A stretch of 64,000 nt of DNA from Geodermatophilus aquaeductus (lineage in GTDB: Bacteria; Actinomycetota; Actinomycetes; Mycobacteriales; Geodermatophilaceae), in NCBI RefSeq assembly GCF_900182545.1, contig NZ_FXTJ01000004.1, positions 62,001 to 126,000 of the forward strand. The letters are read 5' to 3'. Below are positions 37,568 through 41,628 of this stretch, piece by piece. The position numbers and the translations under genes were made by a program. Under the pieces are notes generated by a model. The model was not told the origin of the DNA. It made no database searches and saw only the letters and a list, made by a program, of their open reading frames with translations. Every line of letters starts with the position of its first letter. The stretch's first letter is position 1.

Positions 37568-37630
37568 CCGTGCTCCCTCGGGTCGGTCGCGGTGCCTCCG
37601 GGGACCGTCGGCCCTCCGCCCGGCGGGCGG

Positions 37631-37650
37631 ATCGCCCGGGCCGGGTGAGC
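37631..37650 (-). promoter_or_regulatory. palindromic motif upstream of the MFS gene
   Basis: On the minus strand, GCTCACCCGGCCCGGGCGAT, a member of the recurrent dyad family. It lies 63 bases before the MFS start. Confidence 0.45.
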
Positions 37651-37675
37651 CGTCCCGGTGTGCGCGCCGGCCCCT

Positions 37676-37696
37676 GCTCACCCCGGAGGGGCGAGG
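37676..37696 (+). promoter_or_regulatory. palindromic motif upstream of the 485-residue membrane protein gene
   Basis: CTCACCCCGGAGGGGCGAGG shares its CACCCCGGAGGGG core with the copy at 60231-60253. It lies 86 bases before the ATG at 37783. Confidence 0.45.
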
Positions 37697-37782
37697 CGGA
37701 ACGGGGCGGATCGGTCCCACGCTGCGGCGCGAGACGGGCGTCCCGGTCCGCGGGGATGCGCTCGTGCACGGAGGTGGTGGCG

Positions 37783-39240
37783 ATGACCCAGCTCGACAAG
37801 CCGGAGGTCGGACCGGTCCCGTCGCCGGGGGTGACCGCCGACGAGCGCGCCGAGCTGGACCGCCTGCGCCGGGAGGTCCAGGTCCTGCGGGACGGCGGGC
37901 GCCCGGCGCGGCGCCGGTTCCGGTGGCGGTCGCTGCTGTCCGTGGTGCTGGTCGTCCTCGGGTGCGTGCTCGCTCCCGTGGCCGGCCTCGCCGTGTGGAC
38001 GAACAACCAGCTGTCGGACACCGACCGCTTCGTGCGCAGCGTCAGCCCGCTCGTCGACGACCCGGACGTGCAGAACGCCCTCACCAACCGGCTGACGGCC
38101 ACCGTCTTCGAGTACGTCGACGTGCAGCAGCTCGCCGACGACGCGGTGACCGAGCTGAGCGGGCTGGGACTGCCGCCCGAACTGGTGGCCCGCCTGAGCA
38201 CCCTGACGCCGACCCTCACCTCGGCGGTCCAGGGCTTCGTGCGCGACAAGATCGCCGAGGTGGTGGCCAGCGAGCGGTTCGAGTCGGCGTGGGACCAGGC
38301 GATCCGGGTGGCCCACCGCCAGATGGACGCGGTGCTCTCCGGCGACGCCGAGAGCATCGTCGTCCGCGGCGACACGGTGTACCTGGACCTCGCGCCCTTC
38401 ATCGACGTGGTCAAGGAGCGGCTCAGCGACGCGGGGCTCACCGCCGTCGACCTGGTGCCGGAGGTCCACCCGACCGTGGCGCTGGCCCAGGCCGACACGC
38501 TCGTGCGCGCCCAGTCGGCCTACTCCGCGATGGACACCGTCGCCGACGTGCTGCCCTGGGTCGTCCTGATGCTCCTGGTCGTGGGGATCTACCTCGCCCG
38601 CAACCGGTGGCGCGCGCTGGTGGGCACCGGGCTCGGTCTGGCGCTGTCCATGGTGGTCCTCGCCGCGGGCCTGCTGGTCGCCCGCGGCCTGCTGGTCGGC
38701 GAGGTGCCGGCGGCGGCGGCGCCGGCGACGGCGTCCGGGTTCGACATCGTCGTCACCTACCTGCGGCTGGGCCTGCGCACGCTGCTCGTGCTGGGGCTGG
38801 TGCTCGCCCTGGCCGGCTTCCTGGCCGGCCGGTCGGAGACCGCGGTGCGCATCCGCCGGGGGACGGCCCGGCGCCTGCACGGGCTCCGGGGTGGGCCGTC
38901 CGCCGGGAGCCCGGTGGCCACCTGGGTGCACCGGCACGTCCGGGGCCTGCGGATCGGCGCCGTGGCGGCCGCCGTGCTGGTCTTCGTGTTCCTGACCGAG
39001 CCCTCCGGGGCCGCCATCCTGGTCATCGCCGCCGTCCTGCTCGTCGTGCTCGCCGTCATCGAGTTCCTCGGGCGCCCGGGCACCCCGCCGTCGCCGGCTC
39101 CCGCACCCCCGGCGGACGACCTGCCGCCGGCCGAACCGACCTCGCCGGGCGCCGCGCTGCCCCCGGGCACCGTGCCGGCCCCCGCCACCCCACCGGAGTC
39201 GGAGGTCACGATCCCGCCCGCCGGGGCCACGAGGTCATGA
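37783..39240 (+). CDS. conserved actinobacterial integral membrane protein of unknown function
   Basis: 485 residues from ATG, after GGAGGTGG. One N-terminal helix (RSLLSVVLVVLGCVLAPVAGLAVW) is followed by an extracellular domain of about 200 residues starting NNQLSDTDRFVRSVSPLVDDPDVQNALTNRLT, which is the family signature. Then come a helix cluster (PWVVLMLLVVGIYLAR, LALSMVVLAAGLLVARGLLVG, LVLGLVLALAGFLAGR, AVAAAVLVFVFL, AILVIAAVLLVVLAVIEFL) and a Pro-rich tail. The short charged N-terminus is coiled-coil-like. Function unknown. Overlaps the RDD gene by four bases. Confidence 0.8.
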   Translation: MTQLDKPEVGPVPSPGVTADERAELDRLRREVQVLRDGGRPARRRFRWRSLLSVVLVVLGCVLAPVAGLAVWTNNQLSDTDRFVRSVSPLVDDPDVQNALTNRLTATVFEYVDVQQLADDAVTELSGLGLPPELVARLSTLTPTLTSAVQGFVRDKIAEVVASERFESAWDQAIRVAHRQMDAVLSGDAESIVVRGDTVYLDLAPFIDVVKERLSDAGLTAVDLVPEVHPTVALAQADTLVRAQSAYSAMDTVADVLPWVVLMLLVVGIYLARNRWRALVGTGLGLALSMVVLAAGLLVARGLLVGEVPAAAAPATASGFDIVVTYLRLGLRTLLVLGLVLALAGFLAGRSETAVRIRRGTARRLHGLRGGPSAGSPVATWVHRHVRGLRIGAVAAAVLVFVFLTEPSGAAILVIAAVLLVVLAVIEFLGRPGTPPSPAPAPPADDLPPAEPTSPGAALPPGTVPAPATPPESEVTIPPAGATRS

Positions 39241-39710
39241 GCCGGTCCCACGCGACGGCGACCCCGGTGTCCGCTCCTGCGCCGGGGGCGCCGTCGACGA
39301 CGTCCGCCGGGGTGGTGACCCGGGTCCTGGCCGCCGGCGTCGACCTGGCCGCCGTCGCCGGCGCGGTGCTCCTGGTGGACCTGGCGGCCGCGGGCATCCG
39401 GTTCGCCTGGGCCCCGGCGTCCTTCAGCTGGCCCCGGCTGGCGCTCTGGGGCACGGCGGCGCTGCTGGTGGTCGCGGTCGGCTACCTGACGGTGGCCTGG
39501 GCCACGACCGGACGCACCTACGGCGCGCGCCTGCTCGGGCTGCGCGTCCTGTCCGCCCGGGGCGCTCCGCTGGGCTGGTTCCGGTCGGTCCTGCGGGCGG
39601 TGGCCTGCGTGGTGTTCCCGATCGGGCTGTTCTGGTGCGGGATCAGCGTCACCCGCCGCTCCCTGCAGGACGTCCTGGTCGGGTCGGTCGTGCGGTACGA
39701 CCCGCCCTGA
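39237..39710 (+). CDS. RDD family membrane protein
   Basis: 157 residues, its ATG overlapping the previous stop (ATGA). RDD-type: TRVLAAGVDLAAVAGAVLLVDL in helix one (Asp kept, first Arg and second Asp varied), then GTAALLVVAVGYLTVAWATTGRTYGARLLGLRVLSARG, with the signature G-x-T-x-G-K/A-x2-LGLRV, and SRRSLQDVLVGSVVRYD-like end. RDD proteins are implicated in ion transport in some bacteria. It is coupled to the preceding membrane gene, and both face the nonapeptide-repeat gene. Confidence 0.85.
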   Translation: MSRSHATATPVSAPAPGAPSTTSAGVVTRVLAAGVDLAAVAGAVLLVDLAAAGIRFAWAPASFSWPRLALWGTAALLVVAVGYLTVAWATTGRTYGARLLGLRVLSARGAPLGWFRSVLRAVACVVFPIGLFWCGISVTRRSLQDVLVGSVVRYDPP

Positions 39711-39712
39711 CC

Positions 39713-40966
39713 TCAGGTCACCGCACCGCGCGGGCGGCGGAGGACCCGGTCGACGAAGCGGGCCACCGAGTCGTCGGCGTGCATCCCCTCCGTGCGCACC
39801 GTGCGCGCCGCCTGAGAAGAGACCGCGCCGCTCGACTGCCGCAGGATCGCCGGCAGGTCGATGGCGTCGATGACCTGACGGGCGAGCTCCGGGAGGTCGA
39901 GCCGGGCGACGACGGCGTCGAGGTCGACCCGCGCGATCACGGGGTCGGGCCGCACGCGGGCGAGGATCGCGTCGGGCTCGACCCGGGCGAGGACGGCGTC
40001 GAGGTCGACGCGGGACGCGATCCGGTCCACGTCGACGCCGGCGAGGGCCGCGTCCAGGTCGAGGGCCGCCACGAGGGCGTCGAGGTCGACCCTGGCCAGG
40101 ACGGCGTCGAGGTCCACGCCGGCGAGGATCGCGTCGAGGTCCACGCGCGCGAGGACGGCGTCGAGGTCGACGCGGGACAGGACGGCGTCCACGTCGACTC
40201 CGGCCAGGATCGCGTCGAGGTCGACCCGGGCCAGGATCGCGTCGAGGTCGAGGGCCGCCACGAGGGCGTCGAGGTCGACCCGGGCGAGCACCGCGTCGAG
40301 GCCCAGCCGGGCGAGCACGGCGTCGAAGTCGACGCGGGACAGGACCGCGTCGAGGTCGACCCGGGACAGGATCGCCTCGAGGTCCACGCGGGCCAGCACC
40401 GCGTCCAGGTCCAGCCGCGCCACCGCGGCGTCGAGGTCCACCCGGGTGACCACCGTGTCGATGTCGACCCGGTTCACCACGACGGCGACGTCGACCCGGT
40501 CCACCACGGCGGCGATGTCGACCCGGTCCACCACGGCGGCGATGTCGACCCGGTCCAGCACGGCGGCCACGTCGGCGCGGGCCACCACGGCGTCGACGTC
40601 GGCGCGGGCGACCACGGCGTCGACGTCGATGGTCGCGGCGAGCGCGTCGAGGTCGACGTGCCCGCGGACCAGCTCGGTGAGGTCCAGCGAGGCGACCGCC
40701 CACTCCACCGCCCGGCGCAGGAGGGCGCGGCCGGCCTCGGCCGCCGCCCGCTCCGCGCGGGCCCGCGCGAGCTCGCCGCGCGCCGCCAGGCCCGGGGGGA
40801 GCAGCCGGGCGGGTCCGCCGAGCAGCACGCGCCGGCCCAGGCGGAACGCCCCGGTCGCCGTCGACGTCCCCGTCAGGGCCGCGGACCGCGCGACGTCCGC
40901 CGCACGGTCCCCGGCGGCCACGGCGAGGTCCACCGCGAGGCGCTGCCACCACTGGTCGTCGTCCAC
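39713..40966 (-). CDS. nonapeptide-repeat protein
   Basis: 417 residues from GTG at 40966. Residues 1-103 are helical and Arg/Ala-rich (MDDDQWWQRLAVDLAVAAGD at the start). Residues 104-364 are about 29 tandem nonamers with consensus VDLDAVLAR. The C-terminal 50 residues (LRQSSGAVSSQAARTVRTEG...DDSVARFVDRVLRRPR) look like a conserved cap. There is no signal peptide or membrane helix. The period of nine with fixed V/L, D and A positions suggests a regular solenoid. Similar proteins occur next to RDD genes in other actinobacteria, to my knowledge without assigned function. The start has no Shine-Dalgarno sequence, so the message is probably leaderless. Confidence 0.75.
   Translation of the reverse strand: MDDDQWWQRLAVDLAVAAGDRAADVARSAALTGTSTATGAFRLGRRVLLGGPARLLPPGLAARGELARARAERAAAEAGRALLRRAVEWAVASLDLTELVRGHVDLDALAATIDVDAVVARADVDAVVARADVAAVLDRVDIAAVVDRVDIAAVVDRVDVAVVVNRVDIDTVVTRVDLDAAVARLDLDAVLARVDLEAILSRVDLDAVLSRVDFDAVLARLGLDAVLARVDLDALVAALDLDAILARVDLDAILAGVDVDAVLSRVDLDAVLARVDLDAILAGVDLDAVLARVDLDALVAALDLDAALAGVDVDRIASRVDLDAVLARVEPDAILARVRPDPVIARVDLDAVVARLDLPELARQVIDAIDLPAILRQSSGAVSSQAARTVRTEGMHADDSVARFVDRVLRRPRGAVT
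39875..40657 (-). repeat. 27-bp tandem repeat array encoding about 29 nonapeptides
   Basis: In-frame 27-bp units encode VDLDAVLAR variants. Units at the protein C-terminal side (11-25) are nearly identical; those at the N-terminal side use VDIAAVVDR and ADVDAVVAR versions. A seven-unit (189-bp) block is duplicated: the VDLDALVAA-LDLDA junction occurs twice, with GAGGGCCGCC at 40061 and again at 40250. Confidence 0.85.
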
Positions 40967-41020
40967 CCGGTCAGGTTCGGGCAGACCAGGACGTCGGCCC
41001 TCACCTGCTCCGGGTGATGG
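40962..41020. promoter_or_regulatory. bipartite promoter element of the nonapeptide-repeat gene
   Basis: The palindrome CTCACCTGCTCCGGGTGATG lies at 41000-41019. A second element, TCCACCCGGTCAGGTTCGGG, starts at 40962 and contains the GTG start codon (complement). The same two elements, 38 bases apart, recur at 50234-50290. The palindrome lies 33 bases before the start codon. Confidence 0.5.
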
Positions 41021-41136: not shown

Positions 41137-41628
41137 ATGGCCACCTTGACCGCATGGAAGTTCGACACACCGGGCGGAGCGGAGAACGCCCTCGGCCTGC
41201 TCGAGCGGATGCAGAAGGAGGAGCTGCTCCACATCGACGACGGCGCCTACGTCTACTGGCCGGAGGGCAAGAAGAAGCCGAAGACCCAGCAGCTGAGCAA
41301 CCTCAAGGGCGCCGGGGCGCTCGGGGGCAGCTTCTGGGGCCTGCTGTTCGGGCTGATCTTCTTCGTCCCGCTGCTCGGCATGGCGGTCGGTGCGGCCATG
41401 GGCGCCCTGTCCGGGTCGATGGCCGACGTGGGCATCGACGACGACTTCATCCGCGGCGTCCGGGACCACGTCACGCCGGGCACGTCGGCGCTGTTCGTCA
41501 TGACGTCGAACGTCGTCGTCGACCGGGTGCTGGACGAGTTCAAGGACAGCGGCGCCACGCTGCTGTCGACGAACCTCTCGAAGGAGCAGGAGGCGAAGCT
41601 GCGCGAGGCGTTCGCCGAGGCCGAGTAG
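41137..41628 (+). CDS. DUF1269 domain-containing protein
   Basis: 163 residues from ATG. Soluble N-terminal half (TAWKFDTPGGAENALGLLERMQKEELLHIDDGAYVYWPEGKKKPKTQQ), a Gly-rich hydrophobic pair (LGGSFWGLLFGLIFFVPLLGMAVGAAMGALSG) typical of DUF1269, and a C-terminal half ending TSALFVMTSNVVVDRVLDEFKDSGATLLSTNLS. Conserved membrane-associated stress protein of unknown function. It has its own terminator. Confidence 0.87.
   Translation: MATLTAWKFDTPGGAENALGLLERMQKEELLHIDDGAYVYWPEGKKKPKTQQLSNLKGAGALGGSFWGLLFGLIFFVPLLGMAVGAAMGALSGSMADVGIDDDFIRGVRDHVTPGTSALFVMTSNVVVDRVLDEFKDSGATLLSTNLSKEQEAKLREAFAEAE

Follow-up and report, generated by a model that had tools for sequence, protein, structure and literature searches.

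A nonapeptide-repeat protein family of actinobacteria constantly linked to RDD-family membrane protein genes

RDD proteins are widespread membrane proteins that are still poorly understood. Alpha-solenoid repeats such as HEAT, Armadillo and TPR as well as the N domain of MgtE consist of units much longer than nine residues, and the best-known nonapeptide repeat is RTX. According to the accessible text of two papers on RDD proteins, one member of the family, from Halobacillus andaensis, is a Na+(Li+,K+)/H+ antiporter (PMC5996927), and the B. subtilis RDD protein SppI/YteJ binds and inhibits SppA (PMC7568657); a nonapeptide block is not mentioned in this text. In this study, we analyzed a stretch of 64,000 nucleotides of Geodermatophilus aquaeductus (the window), in which a gene for a protein of tandem nonapeptides adjoins a gene for a member of the RDD family (PF06271). 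The repeat protein itself is no RDD protein; in 17 relatives, however long the array, a single polypeptide comprises the repeats, the cap and RDD.

The repeat gene (39713..40966, minus strand) encodes 417 aa when translated from a GTG start. A longer GTG start at 41170 would yield 485 aa and overlap the divergent DUF1269 gene (41137-41628), and 40966 is therefore the likelier start. Position counts and Tandem Repeats Finder placed the repeat block, with the consensus VDLDAVLAR, at residues 104-364 (39875..40657, minus strand). The preceding N-terminal region (residues 1-103; 40658..40966, minus strand; from alignments and hydropathy) closes with the N-cap motif LDLTELVRGH, which is common to relatives. 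The block is followed by a conserved C-terminal cap (residues 365-417; 39716..39874, minus strand; from alignments and profile matches to relatives), which in the aligned relatives reads IDLPxIIRxSTGxxxSxxVRxVRxQGxxADxxVxRxVDRLLxRR. On the opposite strand, a long open frame (39635-41017 of the window, plus strand) spans the whole repeat gene and is probably a by-product of the GC-rich repeats.

Within the block, 28 units are in exact register (residues 104-355), and a 29th unit, LDLPELARQ, extends to residue 364. Identity was 0.64 at lag 9 versus 0.06-0.18 at those lags up to 30 which are not multiples of 9. The commonest residues over the 28 units were V at position 1 (21 units), D at position 2 (25), L at position 3 (16), D at position 4 (23), A at position 5 (24), V at position 6 (17), L at position 7 (15), A at position 8 (19) and R at position 9 (22). 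Tandem Repeats Finder reported a period of 27 bp with 27.3 copies (score 518) and beside it one of 162 bp, equal to six units (score 648); blocks of about six units therefore seem to have been duplicated as well. Differences among the 28 units amounted to 0.17 at codon position 2 and to 0.33 and 0.37 at positions 1 and 3, and this pattern, with position 2 half as variable, is consistent with selection at the protein level. The block is acidic, its 28 units containing 53 D/E and 24 R, and the mean net charge was -1.1 per unit in a set of 476 units picked by a pattern barring proline at some positions. A sequence-only reading of this DNA had described about 29 tandem nonapeptides over 261 residues between distinct terminal caps, and both statements hold: the units were found in this number, and the N- and C-terminal parts are non-repetitive and conserved in relatives.

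The same reading regarded nine residues as the period of no known common solenoid, and indeed no catalogued repeat was matched. The protein reached the cut-off of no Pfam or NCBIfam model and had no usable match among PHROGs, PADLOC or the PDB sequences; in the literature outside most subscription journals, nothing was recognised on the nonapeptide repeat, nor was any experimental work on these proteins found. Frequent [VA]DL triplets recall pentapeptide repeats, which were rejected with a lag-5 identity of 0.12 versus 0.64 at lag 9 and no Pfam match. A coiled coil was likewise rejected, the best Pfam match (Cortex-I_coil) reaching 19.4 bits versus a cut-off of 60 and the lag-7 identity being 0.13. 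The repeat protein thus belongs to an uncatalogued family; to speak of a new fold goes beyond the evidence.

In a set of 61 genomes, comprising the own genome and 60 relatives, six convincing homologues were detected besides the protein of the window: three belong to the genus, one to the family and two to the order. They share an N-cap and, at the C-terminus, a cap about 50 residues long. Four of the 11 matching genomes (G049, G042, G014 and G052) were dropped, as their ORFs look like chance or antisense matches. Seven loci belong to named relatives: Geodermatophilus sabuli, G. ruber, three Blastococcus records, a Geodermatophilaceae bacterium and Aeromicrobium. A first profile, built of the C-terminal cap and about two units, matched 67 of 394 genomes of the class and 23 of 396 genomes sampled from the phylum. 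With this profile the gene was found in 4 of 26 genomes of the genus Geodermatophilus, and since most of them lack it, it does not represent a core function. A second profile, built from relatives with units such as VDPNRLLDR, matched 61 of the 394 class genomes with E up to 1e-5, including 14 very strong matches (E up to 2.1e-26). In the phylum sample, where E up to 1e-4 was allowed, it matched 27 of 396 genomes. The genomes found by the two profiles were largely the same. In a plasmid collection the window protein had no match, and a fused relative used as query had a single one, restricted to its RDD part.

Across 78 distinct proteins, the longest run of units ranged from 1 to 31. The array is therefore expandable, and the caps are its constant part. 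Locus L047 (193-1788, plus strand) holds 31 units of the VDVNRVADR type, and parts of this repeat stretch are matched by phrog_30808 (E 6e-15) and phrog_19741 (E 1e-10), both of unknown function. In L084, L090, L093, L099 and similar loci, the units are longer and less regular, alternating by eye between about 10 and about 13 residues, and may represent an older form of the nonapeptide. An ORF of the same genus (L012, G014:C47, 460-1746, plus strand), which we take, by its sequence alone, to be alpha/beta-hydrolase-like, terminates in nine-residue repeats unrelated to these (HFLDAVERR, DGLDAVERR).

The RDD gene of the window (39237..39710, plus strand; 157 aa) is convergent with the repeat gene, the two ending tail to tail at 39710 and 39713 with their stops two bases apart. 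Its product scored 47.1 bits against PF06271 (cut-off 24.1). When seven partners were aligned and inspected by eye, the RDD feature of one conserved Arg and two conserved Asp was present, with R and D in VTRVLAAGVD and D in SLQD. A model of the six other partners, excluding that of the window, gave 139.9 bits for the RDD protein of the window and 14.2 bits for the other RDD protein of the genome. As the genome holds only these two RDD genes, chance adjacency is very unlikely.

In all six first homologues, the next downstream gene on the same strand encodes an RDD protein. Altogether, 102 distinct loci were compared (69 from the class sample including the window, 23 from the rest of the phylum, 6 from near relatives and 4 named). 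In 98 of them RDD lies directly 3′ of the cap, on the same strand in 80, fused in 17 and convergent in one, the window. Two of the other four loci end at a contig edge, and two (L114 and L115, with weak cap matches) are without RDD. The count leaves out L053, L056 and L058 as second copies of L018, L017 and L027, L060-L078 as longer stretches of class loci already included, L117-L129, L131-L149, L159 and the repeated phylum loci as second copies, as well as G729:C68 and a 69-base contig-edge piece (G079:C96). Over the 97 loci with RDD on the same strand or fused, the median distance from the end of the cap to the start of the RDD domain was 87 bases, and all five fused proteins tested exceeded the PF06271 cut-off within the ORF that also encodes the repeats. 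The RDD neighbour had been suspected to be a functional partner; every genomic test of this study supports this, and the repeat protein and RDD very likely work together.

When the 98 partner RDD domains were placed in a tree, all 17 fusions fell, together with 13 split pairs, in one clade of 30 (support 100/97), and the remaining 68 rows are all split. The label fused or split requires six changes, at least four of these being forced by well-supported branches. The RDD domain of the window belongs to the larger clade, yet not to the group of the other Geodermatophilaceae copies, which suggests that it is not their vertical orthologue. Its gene has an inverted orientation that was seen in no other pair examined. 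As the two genes of the window are convergent, they do not form one transcript.

Other neighbours are inconstant. They were counted in 29 neighbourhoods with a home-made gene caller, after two of 31 had been dropped because no cap gene was called; the caller missed the RDD gene in three of the 29, where six-frame ORFs show it. A large membrane protein ORF (37570..39240, plus strand; 556 aa as listed) overlaps the RDD gene by 4 bp and had also been proposed as a partner. This part of the proposal gains little support, as only four of the 29 neighbourhoods (those of the window, L058, L070 and L079) contain a homologue, with a weaker and more distant match in L017 (E 1e-15). DUF7144 was present in 12 of 29 and DUF6325 in 9 of 29 neighbourhoods, and a cluster presumably of LuxR/MalT-like regulators, judging by sequence, in 9 of 29. 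Among the neighbour clusters, none was recognised as SppA. A channel-like cluster was found in six of 29 (L019, L059, L070, L073, L075 and the window), Ion_trans_2 being confirmed in both members tested (L073 and L019). An AI-2E-like gene follows RDD directly in L018, L021 and L054, with Pfam confirmation on the L053 copy.

For the structure of the units, the placement of proline was analyzed in 548 units. These came from runs of at least four units, and a unit was accepted even if it missed one of five conditions. Asp occupies position 2 in 501 of them. Of 81 prolines, 4 are at position 2, 44 at position 3, 20 at position 4, 12 at position 5 and 1 at position 9, so that 76 fall on positions 3-5 and none on positions 1, 6, 7 or 8. 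Such a placement of proline and Asp is characteristic of a helix beginning at position 3 and N-capped by Asp. AlphaFold models of the window protein and of the Aeromicrobium relative have helices of seven residues on positions 3-9 of most units, with two residues between them, and a long C-terminal helix. Confidence was low (mean pLDDT 51.1 and 54.6, pTM 0.21 each, 8 sequences per alignment), and Foldseek against the PDB returned 0 matches for either model. As proline placement and AlphaFold agree, the unit is probably a seven-residue, Asp-capped helix with a two-residue joint.

The protein resembles alpha-solenoids and the MgtE N domain in its predicted tandem helices, its caps and a probably cytoplasmic location. 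It differs in its unit of nine residues with a single helix and in having no Pfam or PDB match. An alpha-solenoid consists of stacked helices with a common core; the helices are predicted here, at a pTM of 0.21. Of the earlier idea of a new type of solenoid, the helix and joint of each unit are backed by both models and by the prolines, whereas the three-dimensional arrangement is modelled with low confidence (low pTM, 0 Foldseek matches). A solenoid is a plausible shape by these models, and a flexible chain of helices fits them equally well.

No segment of the repeat protein, N-terminal region included, exceeded the hydropathy threshold. For five fused relatives, K/R were counted in the loops flanking the second RDD segment. 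The following loop contains 5-6 of them in each of the five, and the preceding loop has none in the four proteins whose segment call was usable; the segment finder was crude, misplacing the first segment in L173 and splitting it in L110. This charge pattern points to a cytoplasmic N-terminus. We infer that the repeat protein is cytoplasmic, contacts RDD directly and has the shape of a solenoid. It would then be the soluble component, located in the cytoplasm, of a membrane module that has RDD as its second component. The C-terminal cap, which both models show mostly as a long helix, may dock it on RDD, and in fused relatives the cap would continue directly into the first of the RDD membrane helices. 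The nonapeptides, as two-turn helices with an Asp N-cap and a Val-Asp joint, would form a rod- or solenoid-like acidic arm, the length of which would shift through gain or loss of whole units. Most likely this arm would regulate or scaffold RDD, the regulatory role being our guess. We give about an even chance to this reading as a whole, a cytoplasmic acidic repeat arm docked on RDD that regulates or scaffolds it. By homology, RDD may be a cation/proton antiporter or an inhibitory subunit of a membrane protease, and an arm of this type could serve either kind, antiporter or SppI-like, in regulation or scaffolding.

The low confidence between units in both models would also suit an arrangement without a solenoid core, in which each unit is an independent short amphipathic helix resting flat on the inner surface of the membrane around RDD. 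Positions 1, 3, 6 and 7 are hydrophobic and by helical geometry would give each helix one hydrophobic face, and RDD is a membrane protein. However, an acidic block disfavours binding to anionic membranes, and with the strongly acidic composition given above (28 units of the window, 476 units of the family) we consider this arrangement unlikely. The copy number of 1-31 and the internal period of six units would further agree with a spacer of variable length or a multivalent docking strip for a cytoplasmic partner, with a nearly neutral number of units and RDD as a mere anchor. The constraint on unit positions seen at codon position 2 speaks only to some degree against this alternative, which overlaps with the reading of a docked regulatory arm; we hold it to be similarly unlikely. 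A secreted, calcium-binding beta-roll of the RTX type would share the tandem nine-residue unit and the regular aspartates. It is contradicted by the scarcity of Gly (4 of 252 block residues), with no GGxGxDxUx motif in the block by position counts, by the absence of a match to the RTX models of Pfam, by the helical prediction in both models and by the relatives fused to a membrane protein, and is thus very improbable. That the stretch is not a gene but a GC-rich repeat open in several frames by chance, as long ORFs on both strands might suggest, is hardly credible, since caps conserved in sequence adjoin RDD in 98 of 102 loci.

Returning to the arm docked on RDD, a more far-reaching version is conceivable, which we regard as improbable at present: duplication of an unusually short unit, with nine residues and one seven-residue helix, would have built up a new alpha-helical repeat fold, an acidic ladder sensing cations or pH in the cytoplasm and gating an ion exchanger of the RDD type. 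At least two classes of the phylum would use it, either as a subunit of its own or as a fused domain. If folded as predicted, the unit would, to our knowledge, rank among the shortest helical repeats and be an easily extended scaffold. With its constant and sometimes fused partner, the repeat protein offers a handle on the role of an actinobacterial branch of the RDD family.
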